Source: Chloroflexota bacterium | Lineage (GTDB): Bacteria > Chloroflexota > Limnocylindria > QHBO01 | NCBI GenBank assembly: GCA_013816405.1 | Contig: JACDEL010000011.1 | Span: 1 to 46,805, forward strand | DNA: 46,805 nucleotides | Reading direction: 5' to 3' | In this document: positions 18,576 to 45,122 of the stretch, piece after piece | How the letters are laid out: each line of letters starts with the position of its first letter | How positions within the stretch are numbered: the stretch's first letter is position 1 | Position numbers and translations under genes: made by a program | Notes under the pieces: generated by a model | Database searches by the model: none | Seen by the model: only the letters and a program-made list of their open reading frames with translations | Told to the model about the DNA's origin: nothing

Positions 18576-18694
<119 letters not shown>

Positions 18695-18826
18695 AGATCT
18701 TCAATTGGCGCGACCGCCATCTGCACAGATGGCGAGCGAACCTTCGACTGGAAGCGTCGATTTGCCGAGGCGCCGGTCGAGCCGGCGTCCGAACGCGGTC
18801 CAGCAGCGTGCTAGACGCGTGAAATT

Positions 18827-21893
<3,067 letters not shown>

Positions 21894-21902
<9 letters not shown>

Positions 21903-21928
21903 AACGCTCACGCGGCTAGCACGGTGCT
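21894..21928 (-). other. Pre-23S processing stem, upstream arm
   Basis: This 35-base arm pairs with the downstream arm 18802-18835 across the whole 23S gene. About 30 of 34 positions match, in perfect blocks (GCUUGACCUAA, CACGCG, CUAGCACG). Such stems are RNase III substrates. Confidence 0.75.
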
Positions 21929-21945
21929 GGCCGATGGCGTCGGTT

Positions 21946-21970
21946 CTCGCACGGCTCTTCACCGTGCGAG
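21946..21970 (-). other. Hairpin in the 23S leader
   Basis: Perfect 9-bp stem CTCGCACGG/CCGTGCGAG around a 7-base loop, just outside the processing stem. No T-run follows on the minus strand, so it is not a terminator. Confidence 0.5.
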
Positions 21971-22009
21971 GCGTTCGGATTTCATCCTCGACGAAATCGA
22001 TGCTTCCAG

Positions 22010-22030
22010 TCTTCGGTTCTTAAGGTCGCG
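22010..22030 (-). promoter_or_regulatory. boxA-like element in the 23S leader
   Basis: Minus-strand CGCGACCTTAAGAACCGAAG closely matches a segment of the 16S leader (GTGACCTTAACAGCTGAAGA). The shared GACCTTAA core recalls boxA antitermination sites. It is the only clear sequence shared by the two leaders apart from the promoters. Confidence 0.5.
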
Positions 22031-22178
22031 TCCGTCTCTCGTCGAGACGAAGCCTCAGCGTTATCCGCTGACCGATGGGCACGACGCGCGTCGCGCGCAG
22101 CGATCAGGGGGTACGGCAGATGGGGCTTTTCACAACGATCGCGGGCCGGCCACACCGGCCTTCCCGCGAAGGGGCGCA

Positions 22179-22208
22179 ACTGTAGCACTGACGCCCGACC
22201 ATGGTCAA
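22179..22208 (-). promoter_or_regulatory. Promoter of the 23S-5S transcription unit
   Basis: Minus strand TTGACC (22208-22203), 18-base spacer, TACAGT (22184-22179). The 358-base gap between 23S and the next gene (21903-22260) holds this promoter, a GC-rich hairpin near the start site, the boxA-like element, the hairpin at 21946-21970 and the processing arm; no gene is seen in it. Confidence 0.8.
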
Positions 22209-22260
22209 GGCGACCGTGGCGTCGACACGCCCTGGCGTTTGCAACTTCAAACAGCGTTCC

Positions 22261-23784
22261 TCACGGCGCAACGACCCACACCGTCGGCTTGCCGGCGGGG
22301 TCCCGTGCCACGGGCACCGCACGTTGAGCCGCATCGGACCCCAACGCTGCCCGCAGGTCGTCGCGAGAGAGGGCGAACACGCGTCCCCACGAGGGAGCGA
22401 TCGGCGTCTGAGGCGCCACGATTTCGGGCAGGTGTTCTGCATCCAGGAAGCGGATCACGGTCGCGGTGTAACCGTCGACGATGACGGTGTCCTCGGGCCT
22501 GGCGGCCTCCGCCATTGCCACGAGATCGAAGCGGAAGGCGTCGTATCGGTCGGCGACGGAGCGCTCGAGGTACGCCCTGGCGCTGCCGGCCGCGAGGATC
22601 ACCATGCCGGCCGCTGCCATCAGGAGCAGGACGCGTGCCCAGCCGCTTCCCCACCGCTCCTGGACCTCGTCGCGCAGCTCGTTGACTCCGAGCCCGATCG
22701 TCACCGCGAGTGGAGCCGCCAAGCCGAGGGCGCGCAGAAAATGGGGTGCTCCGCCCTCGGTTGCAATGAGGGGTGGCAGCAGGAAGACCGGCAGGCTCCA
22801 CAGCACGAGGGCGTGGGCCGGGTCGCGGGAGTTGCGCAACAGCCGTCGGACGCCGAACGCCGCCACCACGAAGAGCGGCCAGCTGAGCAGGGGGAGCCCT
22901 GCGACGTCGTGTCGGGGATTCGGATCACCGGTGACGGCAAACATGCCCAATGTCCGGAGCACGTGACCGACGAGGTCGGTCACGGCTTCCGGACCGAACG
23001 CGACGCCGGCGGCACGTCCGAAATAGCTGACCGGATCAGATGCGGCGGCGGCGATCATCGGTATCGCGACGATCACGAAGGCCGCTGCGAAGGGCACGAG
23101 GCTCGCACGCATCGATGCATAGGCGGGCTGGTTGACGCGCCGCAGCCACACCAGCCAGAGGACCAGCAGAAGGGAAATCAGCTTCAAGGGCTGGTAGGTG
23201 TACAGGGTCGCCGCGGAGGCGATCGCGCCAGCAAGGATTGCGGTCGTCCGGCCGGGCCGGTCGTGCCATGCCAGGACTGAGGCGAGGGCGAGGGCGGTGA
23301 ACAGCGGCACAAGCGTGTTGCGCATGCCATCGCGGCTGACGCAGATCAGCCAGAGCGAGCCTGCGGCCCATGCGCTCGCGATGAGGCCGGGAACGACGCC
23401 GAACCGGCGGGCCAGCATCCAGATTGCGACGACGGCGACGACGCCGATCCCGGCGGCGGTGGCGCGCAGGGCGAGCGTCGTCTCGCCGGCGAACCGAAAT
23501 ACCCCGGCCACGAGGTAGGCGAACAGGGCTTCCCGCCCTCCCCCATCGGCGATAAAGATCGGGCGGTAGCTCGGCTCGTGGAGGATGCGCTGCGCGCCCA
23601 GCCCCTCGAACGCTTCGTCCATATAGAGGCCGCCCGGGTTGAGGGCGAGGTCGACGAAGCGGAGGAAGGTCGCTGCGGCAACGATGAGAAGCAGGCACGC
23701 CGCGATCAGCACCCATCGCGGGCTGCCGTCATCATGGGAAGCCCGTGAGCCAGATGCGAATCCGAACCGGTCAAATCGCCCCAC
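22261..23784 (-). CDS. Membrane glycosyltransferase, GT39/ArnT-like (GT-C fold)
   Basis: A 507-residue protein with about eleven hydrophobic segments. The first outer loop carries the acidic catalytic motif of GT-C enzymes (YMDEAFEGLGAQ, D56/E57), and a soluble C-terminal region (from about 420) reads VIVDGYTATVIRFLDAEHL. Such enzymes move sugars from polyprenyl-phosphate donors to proteins or lipids outside the membrane; the acceptor is unknown. It lies inside the 16S-23S spacer, on the rRNA strand, and its stop is 53 bases upstream of the 23S promoter -35. GTG 23784 has GAGGA at 9 bases; this start makes its 5' end overlap the divergent glycosyltransferase gene. A shorter form from GTG 23712 is possible. 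Confidence 0.75.
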   Translation of the reverse strand: MGRFDRFGFASGSRASHDDGSPRWVLIAACLLLIVAAATFLRFVDLALNPGGLYMDEAFEGLGAQRILHEPSYRPIFIADGGGREALFAYLVAGVFRFAGETTLALRATAAGIGVVAVVAIWMLARRFGVVPGLIASAWAAGSLWLICVSRDGMRNTLVPLFTALALASVLAWHDRPGRTTAILAGAIASAATLYTYQPLKLISLLLVLWLVWLRRVNQPAYASMRASLVPFAAAFVIVAIPMIAAAASDPVSYFGRAAGVAFGPEAVTDLVGHVLRTLGMFAVTGDPNPRHDVAGLPLLSWPLFVVAAFGVRRLLRNSRDPAHALVLWSLPVFLLPPLIATEGGAPHFLRALGLAAPLAVTIGLGVNELRDEVQERWGSGWARVLLLMAAAGMVILAAGSARAYLERSVADRYDAFRFDLVAMAEAARPEDTVIVDGYTATVIRFLDAEHLPEIVAPQTPIAPSWGRVFALSRDDLRAALGSDAAQRAVPVARDPAGKPTVWVVAP

Positions 23785-25280
23785 TGCTCATCATCCTCGC
23801 AGGCGCCGCCGCGCTGCGTTTCGTGCTCCTCGACACCCGCGAGCTGTTCCGCGACGAAGCGGCATCATGGCTCCTGGCGCGGTCGGCGTGGGGGGAGATG
23901 ATCACGCGCTCCGCCAGCGAGCCGTATGCGCCTCTCTATGCCTTCCTGCTCAAGGCGTGGATTGGAATGCTCGGCGATGCGCCGGCTTCCCTGCGGGCGC
24001 TCTCGGCTGTTGCCGGCGTTGCGAGCGTCGGCGTGACATGGGCCTGGACGCGCCAGGCGATCGGGCCGAGAGCGGCGGCGCTGGCTGCCCTCCTCGTGGC
24101 GCTCTCGCCGCTCGCGATCGCAAACGCCCGAGAGGCTCGCATGTACGCGCTCGAGTCGCTCTTCGCGGTGCTCGCCTGGTGGCTGATCTGGCGATTGCTG
24201 ACGAGCAGGACACCCGGGGCTGGTAGCCCTCTCGCGATCGCAGCCGCTGCGCTTGCGGTCGCCGGCGAGCTGTGGATGTTGCCCACGGGCGTTGCGGCCT
24301 TCGCCCTGCAGGCCACGGTCGTGGCCGTCGTGGCCTGGCGCCGGCGAGCGGGAACGCGCGCCGCGGGCATTGCCCTCGTCCTGGGCCTGGCGGCGTTCGT
24401 GCCCTGGCTCCCGCGGCTCCTTTCGGTCGCAGGAGGCGGCCAGCCCTTCTGGACACCCACCCCCGACCTCACAGCGCTGCTGCAAACGTTGGGGGGTGCC
24501 TTCGGTGGCTGGCAACCGTCGCCCGGTTGGGTCGCTGTGCTTCCGCTCGCGGTCCTCGGGGCTTTCGGGTTCGGCGCCCTCTTCCGCCGCGGCTTTGCTG
24601 ACCCGACCGCACTGACCGTGTCCGCAGGCGCTGCTCTCGTGCTGGCGTGGTGGATTGCATCACTCTGGCGCGCGGCGTACGACTCCCGCTACCTGGGGTC
24701 CGCCGTTCCGCCGCTGGCCATTGCGATTGCCGCCGGCGCCGAGAGCCTGGCAACACGGCTCCAGCGAACGCCACAGGCACTGTGGGGGGCGGCAGCTGTT
24801 GTACTCGTCCTGGTTGGCACCGGTACTGCTGCCTTCGAGGCGAACTGGGTAAGCGGCCAGGGGCAAGCGCCAGCACAGGCGGCCTCGGTCGTTCTCCAGA
24901 CGCGCGTCCGGACGGGCGACGTCGTGCTCGTGGCGGATGCGCAGAGCTACTTCCCGCTGGCGTACCTGCTGGAGCGCGAACGGGAGCCGATCGAGGTGCC
25001 GGCACCGATTCGTTACTGGCGCTCAGGGCTCGAGCCCGCCTATACCGGCGGAGACCTCATTCGGCGCGACGCGACGATCCCGCGCGATGCCGGGCTGAAG
25101 CCCGGCGAGCTACCCGGTCTCGCGACTAGCGGCAGCATCTGGCTCGTTGCACTCACGGATCCGGTCGCTGAGATTCGCGGCTTCGCGCCGCTCGCAGATG
25201 GTCGAGTCGCCGAGATGGAACGTCTCGAAGTGACTGACCATGGGGATGGCGGCCTCATCCTCAGGCTTCGACCCACCTGA
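23745..25280 (+). CDS. Membrane glycosyltransferase, GT39/PMT_2-like (GT-C fold)
   Basis: A 511-residue protein with about eleven hydrophobic segments, the GT-C acidic motif LFRDEAASW (D37/E38) in the first loop and PYAPLYAFLLKAW, resembling the second conserved loop of the family. The C-terminal region after residue 380 is soluble and probably extracellular. It is the only protein gene inside the 16S-23S spacer that opposes the rRNA direction. Start GTG 23745 or ATG 23754 (MRIRTGQIAPLL). Both starts fall within the 5' end of the divergent glycosyltransferase, so their translation starts overlap by about 31-40 bases. The stop lies 6 bases before tRNA-Ala on the other strand. Confidence 0.75.
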   Translation: MSQMRIRTGQIAPLLIILAGAAALRFVLLDTRELFRDEAASWLLARSAWGEMITRSASEPYAPLYAFLLKAWIGMLGDAPASLRALSAVAGVASVGVTWAWTRQAIGPRAAALAALLVALSPLAIANAREARMYALESLFAVLAWWLIWRLLTSRTPGAGSPLAIAAAALAVAGELWMLPTGVAAFALQATVVAVVAWRRRAGTRAAGIALVLGLAAFVPWLPRLLSVAGGGQPFWTPTPDLTALLQTLGGAFGGWQPSPGWVAVLPLAVLGAFGFGALFRRGFADPTALTVSAGAALVLAWWIASLWRAAYDSRYLGSAVPPLAIAIAAGAESLATRLQRTPQALWGAAAVVLVLVGTGTAAFEANWVSGQGQAPAQAASVVLQTRVRTGDVVLVADAQSYFPLAYLLEREREPIEVPAPIRYWRSGLEPAYTGGDLIRRDATIPRDAGLKPGELPGLATSGSIWLVALTDPVAEIRGFAPLADGRVAEMERLEVTDHGDGGLILRLRPT

Positions 25281-25286
25281 CTGATG

Positions 25287-25362
25287 TGGTGGAGATGAGG
25301 GGACTCGAACCCCTGACCCCCTCCTTGCAAAGGAGGTGCTCTCCCAACTGAGCTACATCCCC
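25287..25362 (-). tRNA. trnA: tRNA-Ala (TGC)
   Basis: Acceptor GGGGAUG/CAUCUCC with the G3:U70 identity pair, anticodon loop UUUGCAA, A73 and encoded CCA. It normally sits directly after tRNA-Ile in the 16S-23S spacer; here a protein gene separates the two. Confidence 0.96.
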
Positions 25363-25400
25363 ATCGCCGCCGGCATCGTACCGTCCCGGGCGGACCGCCG

Positions 25401-26192
25401 CTATGGCGGCGTCAAGCGACGCTTTGGCTCGGCGGGCAGCGCCTCGCCCTGCGGCCAGGGGACGCGCAGGACGATGCAGATGGGCGTCTGCTCGCCGGCC
25501 TGTCCGAGGGGATTGTCGGCGAAGAGGCGCTCTACGAATCTCCGATCCAGGCCAGGTGACAGGCCCAGGGCATTGCAACCCGCGTCGTTGGCATCGATGA
25601 CCGCAACCGGGAAGCCGATCCCTCGCGAGAGCTCGCCTGCGGCGCGGTCCGGATGCTTGGGGCCTAGCGTCGCGGCCTGGTTGTACGGCGCGATGGTGTA
25701 CGACGTGGGGCCATCGATCGCCGCGGCCTGGCGCCCTGCGATCCGATAGAAGAGGCCGTGCAACCCGAACGGCTTGGTGAGGCCGCTGACAATCGCCGCC
25801 AGCAGGATGCGCGGCGCACCGACCTCGCCGATCGCCAGCTGCATGGTCTCGGCGGTCCCGAGCCCGATGCCATATCCCGGACGCGTCACGAACCGCACCA
25901 GGAAGCGCGCGAGCCGACCCGGGCGAATGCTGCTCATCGGGTAGGAGCGGCCCTCGGTGATGGCGATCATCCGCTCGCTGACCGCCACCCCGACAGTGTC
26001 AGGGGCGAGGGGTGTTGCATAGCGGCGGACCACCTCCAGCGGGTTGTCGGCATCGGTCACCAGATGGGTGCGAACCGGGTGGCGGGCGTAGACCGTGCCG
26101 TCCAGGGTCGCATGGAGGCTGCGGTCGGGGTTCGGCTCCGCCAGGATCCCCATCGGGCGGTCGGCCGGCTCCGGCACGGGCATGGGCTCCAT
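25401..26192 (-). CDS. Coenzyme F420-0:L-glutamate ligase-like protein (CofE/FbiB superfamily)
   Basis: A 263-residue soluble protein whose central part resembles the CofE fold: EVVRRYATPLAPDTVGVAVSE, AITEGRSYP, then SYTIAPYNQAATLGPKHPD and FPVAVIDANDAGCNALG. CofE adds glutamates to the deazaflavin cofactor F420, but several relatives do not belong to F420 pathways, and no F420 genes are visible here, so the function is open. The start could be ATG 26192 or ATG 26183; the gene lies 16 bases below tRNA-Ile and 38 bases above tRNA-Ala on the same strand, so it is probably transcribed with them. Recognition is from remembered family patterns, not a search. Confidence 0.55.
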   Translation of the reverse strand: MEPMPVPEPADRPMGILAEPNPDRSLHATLDGTVYARHPVRTHLVTDADNPLEVVRRYATPLAPDTVGVAVSERMIAITEGRSYPMSSIRPGRLARFLVRFVTRPGYGIGLGTAETMQLAIGEVGAPRILLAAIVSGLTKPFGLHGLFYRIAGRQAAAIDGPTSYTIAPYNQAATLGPKHPDRAAGELSRGIGFPVAVIDANDAGCNALGLSPGLDRRFVERLFADNPLGQAGEQTPICIVLRVPWPQGEALPAEPKRRLTPP

Positions 26193-26208
26193 CGGTCTCG
26201 GAGGTGGG

Positions 26209-26285
26209 TGGTGGGCGTTTCTGGACTCGAACCAGAGACCTCTGCCTTATCAGGGCAGTGCTCTAACCAGCTGAGCTAAACGCCC
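26209..26285 (-). tRNA. trnI: tRNA-Ile (GAT)
   Basis: Acceptor GGGCGUU/AACGCCC, anticodon loop CUGAUAA, D-loop AGCUGGUUA, A73 and encoded CCA. It lies 288 bases below the 16S 3' end. Confidence 0.96.
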
Positions 26286-26298
26286 CTCGCGGGGCGGC

Positions 26299-26328
26299 AT
26301 GGTACCCGTACCTCGCCTGAAGACGCAA
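26299..26328 (-). promoter_or_regulatory. Candidate promoter of tRNA-Ile
   Basis: Minus strand TTGCGT (26328-26323), 18-base spacer, TACCAT (26304-26299). The predicted start lies about 6-8 bases before the tRNA. The -35 is weaker than at the rRNA genes, but the -10 equals that of the SRP RNA promoter. Confidence 0.5.
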
Positions 26329-26392
26329 GGTGACGCGCTCCCCACAAGCGAACAGCCGCCCCGGTCAGCGGGACGGCCGTGGTGCCTCGGCG

Positions 26393-26413
26393 GCTGAAGA
26401 GTGACAGGAACCC
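26393..26413 (-). other. Pre-16S processing stem, downstream arm
   Basis: 21 bases that are perfectly complementary to 28145-28165 in the 16S leader, so they can close a stem around the 16S RNA and separate it from tRNA-Ile. The rest of the 16S-tRNA-Ile gap holds a GC-rich hairpin (about 26353-26380) without a clear U-run. Confidence 0.85.
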
Positions 26414-26570
26414 GCGTTGTCGACGGGAGGTCTGTAGGTTCGAGGGCGGCCAACTCGTCCCGCTTGCGCGGGCGCCCGATCCCCCTCGTGGGAGCGGACC
26501 ATTGCGATGAGCTGGTCGATCGACCTGGAAGATCTTGATCCTCCGGCGAACCGGCGGATCGGGCTCTCCC

Positions 26571-28077
<1,507 letters not shown>

Positions 28078-41480: not shown

Positions 41481-41510
41481 AGCGTAGACGACCACCTCAG
41501 GACAGGTCAA
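41481..41510 (-). promoter_or_regulatory. Promoter of xylA-xylB
   Basis: Minus strand TTGACC (41510-41505), 18-base spacer, TACGCT (41486-41481). The -35 overlaps the recR stop region. The leader is about 20-25 bases. Confidence 0.7.
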
Positions 41511-42111
41511 CCTGCCGGCGACCCTGGAGGGACCGGATGAGCGTGACGTCGTCGGCGTACTCCAGGTCGCCGCCGACCGGCAGACCGCGCGCGATGCGCG
41601 ACACCATCGGGACATGCGGCGCCAGCAGGTCGGCCAGGTACATGGCGGTGGCCTCGCCCTCGAGGTTGGGATTGGTCGCCAGGATCACCTCCTCGACCCC
41701 GCCCGCCGCCACGCGAGCCACCAGCTCGCGGGCACGGATCTGATCAGGACCGATGCCGTCGATCGGGCTGATCGCCCCGTGCAGGACGTGATAGCGGCCG
41801 CGGTACTCCCCCGTCCGATCGATGGCCAGCACGTCGAGCGGCTCCTCCACCACGCAGATGCGCGTCGCGTCGCGTCGGTCATCGGCGCAGAAGGCGCACG
41901 GGTCGACCCCGCGGTCGGTGATGTTGCAGCAGGTCGAGCAGTAGGCGACCTCCTCCTTTACGGCGACAAGCGCGGAGGCCAGGCCACGGGCCTCGTCCGC
42001 CGGAGCGCGCAGCATGTGATAGGTGAGGCGCTGGGCCGTCTTGCGCCCGACCCCAGGAAGCTTGCTGAACTCCTCGATCAGGCGCGCGACCGGCGCGATC
42101 AGGCCGCTCAC
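41497..42111 (-). CDS. recR: Recombination mediator RecR
   Basis: Clamp-forming RecFOR pathway protein. The 204-residue product has the N-terminal helix-hairpin-helix (FSKLPGVGRKTAQRLTYHML), a zinc finger (YCSTCCNITDRGVDPCAFC), a Toprim domain with VVEEPLDVLAIDRTGEYRGRY and the C-terminal RIARGLPVGGDLEYADDVTL. The start is GTG 42111, 10 bases after ebfC. Order dnaX-ebfC-recR is conserved in bacteria. Confidence 0.96.
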   Translation of the reverse strand: MSGLIAPVARLIEEFSKLPGVGRKTAQRLTYHMLRAPADEARGLASALVAVKEEVAYCSTCCNITDRGVDPCAFCADDRRDATRICVVEEPLDVLAIDRTGEYRGRYHVLHGAISPIDGIGPDQIRARELVARVAAGGVEEVILATNPNLEGEATAMYLADLLAPHVPMVSRIARGLPVGGDLEYADDVTLIRSLQGRRQVDLS

Positions 42112-42121
42112 GCCGGCCGAT

Positions 42122-42439
42122 TCAAGGCAGCCCCGGCAAGCCGGGGAGGCCCATCCCGCCGGCCAGCGACGCCATCCGCTCGCGCTCGAGCTCCTTGCTC
42201 CGCGCGATCGCGTCGTTGACCGCCGCCATGACCAGGTCCTGCAGCATCTCCACCTCGGCCGGGTCGACCGCGGCCGGATCGATCTCGATCAGGCGAATCT
42301 CCTGCGCCCCAGTCACGACCACGCGCACGGCGCCGCCGCCCGCGGTGGCCTCCAGCGTCGTCTCCCGCAGCTCCGACTGGGCCTGGGCCATCTGGGTCTG
42401 CATCTGCTGTGCCATCTTGGCGATCTGGCCGATATTCAC
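42122..42439 (-). CDS. ebfC: YbaB/EbfC family nucleoid-associated protein
   Basis: Small DNA-binding dimer, 105 residues: an N-terminal coiled helix (IAKMAQQMQTQMAQAQSEL), a beta region with GGGAVRVVVTGAQEIRLIEIDP and a C-terminal helix. A glycine/proline-rich end (GGMGLPGLPGLP) is typical of the family. The GTG start overlaps the dnaX stop (GTGA). Confidence 0.94.
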   Translation of the reverse strand: MNIGQIAKMAQQMQTQMAQAQSELRETTLEATAGGGAVRVVVTGAQEIRLIEIDPAAVDPAEVEMLQDLVMAAVNDAIARSKELERERMASLAGGMGLPGLPGLP

Positions 42440-44043
42440 GATCTGACCTCGGGAGCGTCCACCAGCTCGCCGCCAGTGATGCGCAGGACCCCCTCCAACA
42501 GCGCCAGGCCTTCACTGTCGCCGGGGCTGGCGACGATCGCCTCGGCAATCGTCAGCGGCTCGAGCTCCACGTTGCTGGCGACGCACTCGATCGCCCAGCT
42601 CCCGCCGAGCACGGCTGTGAGCAGCTGCTCGATCGCCGGAGCCCGTGTCGCAGCCTTGGCGCGCATGAAGGAGCGCTCTTCGGGAAATGCCAGCGTGACC
42701 CGCACGCCGTCGACCGCGATCGGCCGGCACTCGCGCAGGAGCGGCTTGATGGCGGGGGCCGCATGTTCGACGACATCGCCCCAGCGCGATCGAAGGCCCA
42801 TCAGTTCGGTGGGTGGTGCGTCCCCGTTGGCAGCATGCGGCTGGGCCGGCGGCGTGTCGACGGCTAGGGTCGCCTCGACGAGCGCCGGGCGAGGAGCTGG
42901 CTGGTCCCGCTCCGGCTCTACTACCGGCGCCGGCGCCGGCGGTGGCGATGCGGCCGCGACGGTTAGCGCCACCGGAGCTGAGACGGTGGCAGCGGGGCGG
43001 GGCGCCTCGACCGCCAGCAGCTCGAGAGCCAGGCGCGAGCGCCCCTCCCGAGCGCCCACGGTCGCGGCCTCGGCGAGAGTGCGCAGCATGCCTGCCAGGC
43101 GCCGCGCCAGGGGTGGATCAGACGCCGATCGCAGCAGCCGCCGCCGCGCCTCTCCCTCGGCCTGGGCGGCGACCTGCCCCATGTCGCGGCCGACGTCGGC
43201 CAGCGCCTCGATCCGGTCGAGGGCGGCCCCGGCATCGCCCGCCAGGTAGGCGTCGATCAAGAGGCTGATCTCGCCCTCGTCGGCCAGTCCGACGGCCTCG
43301 CGCACGCCGTCAGCGGTGACCCGATCACCAGCGTAGGCCAGCACCTGGTCGAGCAGCGACTCGGCATCCCGCATCCCGCCGTCCGCGAGCTGGGCGATCA
43401 CCTCGAGCGCATCGGGATCGGCCTGGGCGCCGTCCGCCTCTACGATCCGCGTGAGCTTGGCCACGATCAGCGGCACCGAGATGCGCCGGAAGTCGAAGCG
43501 CTGCGTGCGGCTGATGACCGTGGCCGGCACCTTGTGCGTGTCGGTGGTGGCCAGGATAAAGACGACGTGTGGCGGCGGCTCCTCGACCAGCTTCAGCAGC
43601 GCGTTGAAGGCGTGCGCGCTGAGCATATGCACCTCGTCGATGATGTAGACCCGTCGCCGCAGCTCCGCCGGTGCGGTCAGGGCCCGCATCACGAGGTCGC
43701 GGGCATCCTCGACCAGGCCGTGGCTGGCGGCGTCGATCTCGATCACGTCCATCGCACGGCCCTCGCGAATGGAGACGCAGGCCGGGCAACGGTCACACGG
43801 CTCACCGTCGGCTTCCCGGTTGGTGCAGTTGATTGCCTTGGCCAGGATGCGTGCCATCGAGGTCTTGCCGGTGCCACGCGGGCCCACGAACAGGTAGGCG
43901 TGCGCGATCCTGTCGGCCGCCACCGCATTACGCAGGGTGGTGACGATCGGCTCCTGCCCGATCAGCTCCTCGAAGCGCTGCGAGCGCCATCGGCGATAGA
44001 TGGCGGATGGCTCAGGAGATGCGGCGGCTGCGGGTTCGACCAT
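42436..44043 (-). CDS. dnaX: DNA polymerase III subunit tau/gamma
   Basis: Clamp-loader ATPase. 535 residues with Walker A GPRGTGKT (54-61), a zinc module (C73, C83, C86, C89), Walker B IIDEVH (134-139) and the SRT sensor (178-180). An Ala/Pro-rich linker follows (about 345-410), then a C-terminal domain that could bind polymerase. No slippery A-run suitable for gamma production was seen. ATG 44043 has AGGA 4 bases upstream. It lies 59 bases below the SRP RNA gene. Confidence 0.95.
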   Translation of the reverse strand: MVEPAAAASPEPSAIYRRWRSQRFEELIGQEPIVTTLRNAVAADRIAHAYLFVGPRGTGKTSMARILAKAINCTNREADGEPCDRCPACVSIREGRAMDVIEIDAASHGLVEDARDLVMRALTAPAELRRRVYIIDEVHMLSAHAFNALLKLVEEPPPHVVFILATTDTHKVPATVISRTQRFDFRRISVPLIVAKLTRIVEADGAQADPDALEVIAQLADGGMRDAESLLDQVLAYAGDRVTADGVREAVGLADEGEISLLIDAYLAGDAGAALDRIEALADVGRDMGQVAAQAEGEARRRLLRSASDPPLARRLAGMLRTLAEAATVGAREGRSRLALELLAVEAPRPAATVSAPVALTVAAASPPPAPAPVVEPERDQPAPRPALVEATLAVDTPPAQPHAANGDAPPTELMGLRSRWGDVVEHAAPAIKPLLRECRPIAVDGVRVTLAFPEERSFMRAKAATRAPAIEQLLTAVLGGSWAIECVASNVELEPLTIAEAIVASPGDSEGLALLEGVLRITGGELVDAPEVRS

Positions 44044-44102: not shown

Positions 44103-44372
44103 GGCCGTGCACCCGGCGTCGATCGATCCCTTCCGCCCACACGTCCATCGACCGGGTCCAGCCAGGTCGTCCCACGGCACCCGAGGGCGATCGCTTACCG
44201 CTGCTTCCTTCCGGACCTGACGGGGTTCACGGACTCTCGCTGCGTGGGACCCGACTCTCAACGTCGGTCGATGTCGTGGGAGACGAAGGCGGATCGGCCT
44301 CGGCCGGGGATTCAGTCCCGCTGTAGCGGATTGCGGGTGCAGGGCACCGCTAGTTCCCCACCTAGCACGGCC
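44103..44372 (-). ncRNA. ffs: Signal recognition particle RNA, long form with Alu-type domain
   Basis: About 270 bases. The S-domain tetraloop hairpin GGUCCGGAAGGAAGC (complement of the 44200-44215 region) binds Ffh. The 5' part (GGGGAACUAGCGGUGCCCUG, then CCGCAAUCCGCUA) matches the Alu-domain pattern of Gram-positive scRNA. Ends GGCCGUGC (44372-44365) and GCACGGCC (44110-44103) pair to close the molecule. The promoter at 44379-44408 places transcription start at the 5' end. Order tadA-scr-dnaX matches Bacillus. Confidence 0.92.
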
Positions 44373-44416: not shown

Positions 44417-44504
44417 TGGCGGAGAGGGGGGGATTCGAACCCCCGACGGGTTGCCCCGAACCGCATTTCCAATGCGGCGCCATAGGCCACTAGGCGACCT
44501 CTCC
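44417..44504 (-). tRNA. trnS: tRNA-Ser (GGA)
   Basis: Type II tRNA, acceptor GGAGAGG/CCUCUCC, anticodon loop UUGGAAA in CCGCA/UGCGG, long variable arm, G73, encoded CCA. Confidence 0.95.
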
Positions 44505-44518
44505 GGGGGCGTTGCGCG

Positions 44519-44605
<87 letters not shown>

Positions 44606-44630: not shown

Positions 44631-45074
44631 TCAGGCTGGAGCCCGGGCGGTGGCCATCAGGCGCCGCGCCTCGTCCTCGCGCACGCCGGAGATAATGGAG
44701 ATCTGATGCGGCATGCCGGGGGCGCGCGCCAGCTGCATGGCACCGCCGGCGGCGCCTTGCTTCTCATCCGGAACGGCGTACACCAGCGTGCGGACTTGAG
44801 CCTCGAGGAGCGCGCCGACGCACATGGCGCAGGGCTCATGGGTGGTGAAGACGGTCACCTCGGGGAGGCGCTTGGCATCCAGCTTGCGCGCCGCGGCCTG
44901 CAGGGTGAGGAGCACGGCGTGGGCGGTCGGGTCGCGCTGCAGGAGGATGCGCCGGTGGTCGCGAGCAATCATGGCGTCGTCCAGGACCGCCACCGCGCCG
45001 ATCGGCGTCTCCCCCTCCTCGGCGCCGCGCCGAGCTTCGGCGATCGCCTCGGCCATGTACAGCTCGTAGTTCAC
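44631..45074 (-). CDS. TadA-like tRNA adenosine deaminase with altered active site (HAV for HAE)
   Basis: Zinc deaminase fold by position and sequence: TPIGAVAVLDD near the start, DPTAHAVLLTLQ and PCAMCVGALL with zinc ligands H52, C82 and C85, then GAAGGAMQL. TadA makes inosine at tRNA-Arg(ACG) position 34. Here the proton-shuttling glutamate of HAE is valine (codon GTG, one base from GAG), and the active-site asparagine found upstream in E. coli TadA (GWNRPIG) is not conserved (ARDHRRILL). The start is GTG 45074, placed 7 bases after a TAGACT box, giving 147 residues. It precedes the tRNA-Ser pair and SRP RNA, the usual tadA location. Confidence 0.8.
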   Translation of the reverse strand: MNYELYMAEAIAEARRGAEEGETPIGAVAVLDDAMIARDHRRILLQRDPTAHAVLLTLQAAARKLDAKRLPEVTVFTTHEPCAMCVGALLEAQVRTLVYAVPDEKQGAAGGAMQLARAPGMPHQISIISGVREDEARRLMATARAPA

Positions 45075-45116: not shown

Positions 45117-45122
45117 TAGCAT
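45117..45122 (+). promoter_or_regulatory. -10 box of the protein mannosyltransferase gene
   Basis: TAGCAT followed by 5 bases and GTG 45128, so the mRNA would begin at or within a few bases of the start codon. Confidence 0.4.

Follow-up and report, generated by a model that had tools for sequence, protein, structure and literature searches.

TadA is usually considered close to essential in bacteria, and any 'tadA' match in a genome is taken as a sign of inosine at tRNA-Arg. ADAT3 is functional only in combination with ADAT2 and carries an N-terminal domain that binds tRNA. In ADAT3, a C-terminal acidic residue serves as a fourth zinc ligand and caps the pocket.

Bacterial TadA (S. aureus, 2B3J; B. 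subtilis YaaJ, 7CPH; E. coli, 1Z3A) is the A34 deaminase of tRNA-Arg(ACG). Its catalytic Glu shuttles a proton from the zinc-bound water, and an active-site Asn and the C-terminal helix help in binding the anticodon loop (PMC8216470). In ADAT3, the Glu is exchanged for Val, the C-terminal helix is shortened and tRNA determinants are lost (PMC8216470). In Mollicutes, a change from ACG to GCG, together with TCG, makes A-to-I editing unnecessary; TadA is degenerate or deleted there, and the degenerate form was proposed to be an intermediate (PMC3711424). That is, loss of TadA with an ACG-to-GCG change is already known in Mollicutes. Our searches of the openly licensed literature did not turn up any bacterial pseudo-TadA (a TadA fixed in an inactive form), which is weak evidence of novelty.

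We analyzed a stretch of 46,805 nucleotides from a Chloroflexota bacterium (the window). With modest confidence, we favor the view that a lineage of mostly uncultured bacteria, comprising two families within a single Chloroflexota class (probably Limnocylindria), has turned its tadA into the gene of a pseudo-deaminase that stands alone and is under selection for a new role other than editing.

The gene and its locus

The window gene (Table 1) encodes a 147-residue protein with the motifs DPTAHAV54 and EPC82AMC85. An earlier note on this DNA, made from the letters alone, had described a TadA-type deaminase that keeps its three zinc ligands and lacks both the catalytic Glu and the upstream active-site Asn. 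This description was borne out. H52, C82 and C85 are present, HAE is replaced by HAV with GTG as the codon for Val54 (44915-44913, minus strand), and Arg41 is found at the position of S. aureus N42. A longer frame could start at an ATG at 45122. The GTG start is supported, since all relatives start exactly at M(N/H)YE.

The protein matched PF14437 (5e-25) and PF00383 (8e-18). It also matched the NCBIfam TadA model NF008113 (1.4e-36, 125.9 bits), under the curated cut-off of 150 bits; undoubted HAE TadAs from another family of the same class (f2) score slightly under this cut-off too. An AlphaFold model (mean pLDDT 92.3) has a short last helix (133-144). In Foldseek, the model aligned to 7CPH, 2B3J and 3OCQ with TM scores of 0.87-0.90, that is, it has the cytidine-deaminase-like TadA fold. 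The protein starts at the first deaminase helix and is without an N-terminal tRNA-binding domain of the ADAT3 type.

Table 1. Features of the window, with coordinates in the window
Feature	Position	Strand	Basis or remark
tadA-derived pseudo-deaminase gene, 147 aa	44631..45074	-	GTG start at 45074, stop 44631-44633
tRNA-Ser(CGA)	44519..44605	-	directly downstream of pseudo-deaminase gene
tRNA-Ser(GGA)	44417..44504	-	tRNA search
large bacterial SRP RNA (scr)	44105..44370	-	RF01854, 170.7 bits
dnaX (DNA polymerase III tau/gamma)	42436..44043	-	sequence and family knowledge
ybaB/yaaK-type nucleoid protein gene	42122..42439	-	sequence and family knowledge
recR	41497..42111	-	sequence and family knowledge
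16S rRNA	26574-28075		interrupted rRNA operon
ORF between tRNA-Ile and tRNA-Ala	25401-26192	-	
membrane-protein-like ORF in rRNA operon spacer	23745-25280	+	
membrane-protein-like ORF in rRNA operon spacer	22261-23784	-	
23S rRNA	18826-21901		interrupted rRNA operon

The order at the window locus is tadA-tRNA-Ser-tRNA-Ser-SRP RNA-dnaX-ybaB-recR, where we take the last three genes to be dnaX, ybaB/yaaK and recR from sequence and family knowledge. This matches the order yaaJ(tadA)-scr-dnaX-yaaK-recR of B. subtilis (PMC10454642). In addition, the canonical HAE TadAs of family f2 are encoded at the same locus as the HAV gene. Based on this shared place and the B. subtilis-like order, the window protein is a direct descendant of tadA. 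dnaX is a conserved neighbor of tadA in both HAV and HAE relatives. In a quick tree, the deep order of which is without resolution, the HAV proteins fell among TadAs and away from nucleoside deaminases, on one long branch (stem of 0.93 changes per column, SH-aLRT 100). We conclude that the window gene goes back to the tadA of its lineage by vertical descent and has turned into a pseudo-deaminase gene.

Clustering of ORFs from 92 loci revealed no operon partner that hints at function, just dnaX, recR and patchy, lineage-limited upstream neighbors. tRNA-Ser(CGA) adjoins the HAV gene (within 4 kb) in 73 of the best 80 loci from a genome scan (see below). This arrangement fits the notion that the ORF is kept merely as the upstream co-transcribed neighbor of tRNA-Ser(CGA), tRNA-Ser(GGA), the SRP RNA and dnaX. 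We consider this extremely unlikely. There is selection on the protein sequence, and the low dN/dS (see below) already refutes the notion. Furthermore, in family f5 (genome G075) other ORFs, and no tadA remnant, lie between the tRNA pairs Ser(GCT)-Arg(GCG) and Ser(CGA)-Ser(GGA), indicating that the gene is dispensable for the layout.

Elsewhere in the window (18576-28075) there is an interrupted rRNA operon with 16S, tRNA-Ile, tRNA-Ala and 23S and long spacers between them. The spacers seem to hold protein genes (Table 1).

Conservation in relatives

We scanned 84,980 species genomes and took the best 80 loci. All were from Chloroflexota MAGs, including one Candidatus Limnocylindrales and one Thermomicrobiales. 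The catalytic position was V in 74 of these best 80 loci, I in 6 and E in none, and H, C and C of the zinc site were kept in all. HPV, the motif of human ADAT3, was present instead of HAV in 4 of them (L160, L183, L184 and L190).

The HAV clade consists of families f1 and f3 of one Chloroflexota class; f2 and f5 are other families of that class. We aligned 99 distinct sequences from the two families of the clade and numbered positions as in S. aureus TadA, whose sequence we checked against 2B3J. The catalytic position was V in 93 and I in 6, never E, and all three zinc ligands were found in 99/99. Across family f3 (107 genomes, 27 genera), the codon matched V or I in recognizable tadA places, and GA-type matches at known f3 places were separate nucleoside deaminases. 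The closest relative, a congener (G002), has a protein that is 93% identical and also has V54. The assemblies are metagenomic and 59-99% complete.

The earlier note had asked if V54 is fixed among orthologues and had held that relatives all carrying HAE would point to a sequencing error or a recent mutation. V or I is fixed across the HAV clade: all 99 distinct relatives had one or the other. Error and recent mutation at codon 54 are both ruled out, since the exchange is found in the congener with 93% identity and throughout the clade.

One HAV gene (L090, G051:C6) is without the usual N-terminal third in frame, and its match starts at residue 34. This may be a truncation, a frameshift or an assembly error. 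DPTAHAV-like pattern matches also turned up in Chloroflexota of other families (e.g., G176, G182, G215). We treated these as chance because they did not overlap TadA profile matches.

Decoding of CGN codons

To account for the missing Glu, the earlier note had offered decoding of CGN without A-to-I editing, a second active TadA (possibly in a heterodimer), or another function for the protein. The first of these was supported. Typing of all Infernal tRNA matches in the window genome (95% complete) gave Arg tRNAs with GCG, TCG, CCG, TCT and CCT anticodons and no tRNA-Arg(ACG). CGN codons are covered by the GCG, TCG and CCG tRNAs. Thus, in the comparison of ACG with GCG that the note had proposed, GCG is present and ACG is absent.

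The absence of ACG is complete only for the window genome and elsewhere rests on a consensus tRNA-Arg pattern, with which GCG was found in 16 f1, 41 f3 and 2 f5 genomes among 101 relatives, ACG was found in 8 f2 genomes, and no ACG was found in f1 or f3. That is, HAV and GCG occur together across the class, as do HAE and ACG. ARAGORN confirmed tRNA-Arg(ACG) in f2 and tRNA-Arg(GCG) both in f5 and in one f2 genome, G022. Arg(GCG) was within 4 kb of the HAV gene in 30 of the best 80 loci, and ACG in none.

No TadA was found in family f5, which has genomes of 1.0-1.2 Mb with GCG. The same was seen in G022 (97% complete): GCG was present and no TadA was found. Its tRNA-Arg(GCG) (L292:1683-1757) is 89% identical to that of the window genome; the rest of f2 has ACG. 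It is possible that this combination is due to transfer or to independent loss. GCG tRNAs were 87-89% identical to that of the window genome, in contrast to 63-73% for the ACG tRNAs of f2. These are two types, and the origin of GCG as a point-mutated anticodon of the f2 ACG tRNA is not supported.

A genome from another Chloroflexota class (G270; e.g., L195, L270, L272) has an HAE TadA together with Arg ACG, GCG, TCG and CCG tRNAs. It is plausible that this is an intermediate, with inosine already redundant for CGN. Among 251 sampled Chloroflexota genomes, no more than 104 had a TadA-model match (E<1e-12), and many of these matches were RibD or other deaminases; it seems that TadA has been lost widely in the phylum. 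Among the tRNA matches listed for the wider phylum, Arg tRNAs of the GCG type are common. We infer the direction and order of the tRNA switch and the TadA change across the class.

The tRNA matches of the window genome also included an 85-nt class-II tRNA-like gene with an ACC anticodon, called tRNA-Gly(acc) (G000:C5:23172-23255; L072:272-356; minus strand). It is near an XRE-like HTH ORF, and normal Gly GCC, TCC and CCC tRNAs are also in the genome. It may be a degenerate, mobile-element or otherwise unusual tRNA.

Search for a second deaminase

The window genome (2.50 Mb, 95% complete) has a single PF00383/TadA match, which is the window gene. Profile searches found no second TadA and no other PF00383 match in this genome, and the single match also means that no RibD-type deaminase domain was found. 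HAE/HGE nucleoside-deaminase-like proteins are patchy in relatives and absent from the window genome. The earlier note's second active TadA or heterodimer is thus not supported, and we rejected it for the window genome.

If there were such a heterodimer, the HAV protein would be its inactive, tRNA-positioning half, like ADAT3, and the active deaminase would be encoded elsewhere. The HAV protein does resemble mouse ADAT3 (PMC8216470) in the E-to-V exchange, the retained zinc ligands, the short C-terminal helix and the lost anticodon contacts, and some relatives have a second HAE/HGE deaminase. However, these second deaminases are scattered among relatives and belong to several kinds (guanine-, cytosine- and nucleoside-deaminase-like), the ADAT3 N-terminal domain is missing from the 147 residues, and there is no A34 tRNA-Arg as substrate. 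With a single PF00383/TadA match in the window genome, we give this arrangement next to no chance of being right.

Selection and loss of RNA contacts

The HAV gene had a dN/dS of 0.05-0.21 (15 pairs). Such purifying selection indicates that the HAV protein does something. Since several RNA-contact residues are lost along with the catalytic one (see below), this selection also lends indirect support to the other function that the earlier note had considered.

We compared the clade with the anticodon-loop contact residues of S. aureus TadA (PMC3711424). N42 was retained in 7/99 sequences, E45 in 7/99 and R94 in 11/99 (D in 70). W69, N123 and the C-terminal FF of the aromatic helix are lost, and conservation of K106 is gone. 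Nearly all of the residues lost in the HAV clade are still there in 38 Chloroflexota HAE TadAs. H53, C83, C86, P50, T51 and E81 (S. aureus numbering) are kept in 99/99 HAV-clade sequences and the R70 position in 79/99. In the HAV protein, the purine-pocket residues P49, T50, A53 and H52 are retained. Together with the R70 position, these make some nucleotide binding possible. The clade also has residues of its own: N2, Y3, L5, M35, F76 and A116 are newly fixed, and the N-terminus is an invariant MNYEL[YF]M. The mean net charge is -5.3 for the HAV clade, -1.2 for f2 and +1.9 for other Chloroflexota TadAs; that of the window protein is -2.

These patterns bear on two other readings. In one, the gene is a relic, a TadA without a substrate that is decaying with nothing selected. 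The substrate tRNA is gone, TadA is missing from many Chloroflexota, and family f5 and G022 have GCG without TadA. Decay is nonetheless disfavored by the dN/dS. Furthermore, fixation of V or I and of the zinc site is not expected of decay; the zinc ligands are invariant and six residues newly fixed in 99 sequences from two families, and f3 alone spans 27 genera. We regard a relic as very unlikely.

In the other reading, the protein still catalyzes a reaction, either of a different kind or with a different residue as the general base at the zinc site. No variation is seen in the three zinc ligands or in the DPTAHA pocket, and Asp is present at the active-site Asn position in 71/99. We rejected this Asp as a replacement base because the position varies (R, Q, H, C, N or E in the others) and is Arg in the window protein. 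By alignment, there is no other newly clade-fixed acidic residue at the pocket, and V or I faces the zinc in every member. Continued enzyme activity is therefore unlikely.

Discussion

One ancestor of the HAV clade swapped the catalytic Glu for Val, which later became Ile in some members. The cell has no tRNA-Arg(ACG) to edit, with CGN read by the GCG, TCG and CCG tRNAs. The active-site Asn, most of the checked anticodon-loop contacts and the aromatic C-terminal helix have been lost, and the protein has become more acidic. The fold and the zinc ligands have been retained, an invariant N-terminus of its own has been gained, and purifying selection acts on the protein. Zinc may now have a structural role. 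We propose that the HAV protein is a zinc-stabilized binding protein, probably a TadA-like dimer, whose role would be to bind another protein or a small ligand and not to edit RNA.

With the Glu, the Asn, the C-terminal helix and the ACG tRNA gone, deamination of A34 appears very unlikely. Judging from sequence, the HAV protein is very probably dead as an A34 deaminase, and it is likely to have a selected, non-editing function. Non-catalytic binding is the most likely present role. Overall, we are rather confident that an ancestral tadA became a pseudo-deaminase without A34 editing that now serves in binding rather than RNA editing.

An annotation of inosine based on a 'tadA' match would be wrong for the whole HAV clade. 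The class is a natural experiment: its members have an active TadA with ACG, a dead but kept TadA with GCG, or GCG without TadA. With these three family states, the order of the switch in codon reading, the inactivation of the enzyme and its reuse should be traceable.

The HAV protein shares with bacterial TadA the orthologous locus, the fold (TM about 0.9), the zinc ligands and the DPTAHA pocket, with 30-38% identity. It differs in that the catalytic Glu and the active-site Asn are missing, as are the C-terminal aromatic helix and several of the anticodon contacts, in that it scores under the curated TadA cut-off, and in that its genome has no ACG tRNA. Like Mollicutes, the window genome reads CGN without ACG, using GCG plus TCG. 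In contrast to the situation in Mollicutes, the HAV protein is retained; the inactivating change is at its catalytic residue, and its sequence is under constraint in both families. The same exchange is found in the same superfamily in engineered yeast cytosine deaminase E64V (8VLM, according to the entry title), but that is a laboratory mutant of a pyrimidine deaminase.

The likeness to ADAT3/Tad3 that the earlier note had drawn holds for the Glu-to-Val exchange (HAV, or HPV in four relatives), the retained zinc ligands, the shortened C-terminal helix and the lost tRNA contacts. It does not extend to an active partner or to the N-terminal domain: the HAV protein is bacterial and single-domain, and has no ADAT2-like partner, no N-terminal tRNA-binding domain and no A34 tRNA-Arg. 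The E-to-V exchange would be a second, independent inactivation besides that of ADAT3, with recurring losses of the Glu, the Asn, the anticodon contacts and the C-terminal helix. On balance, we lean toward viewing it as a bacterial counterpart of the ADAT3 inactivation with the active partner absent. The HAV protein is a conserved pseudo-deaminase, without an active partner, that is convergent with ADAT3 and not a member of the ADAT3 family.
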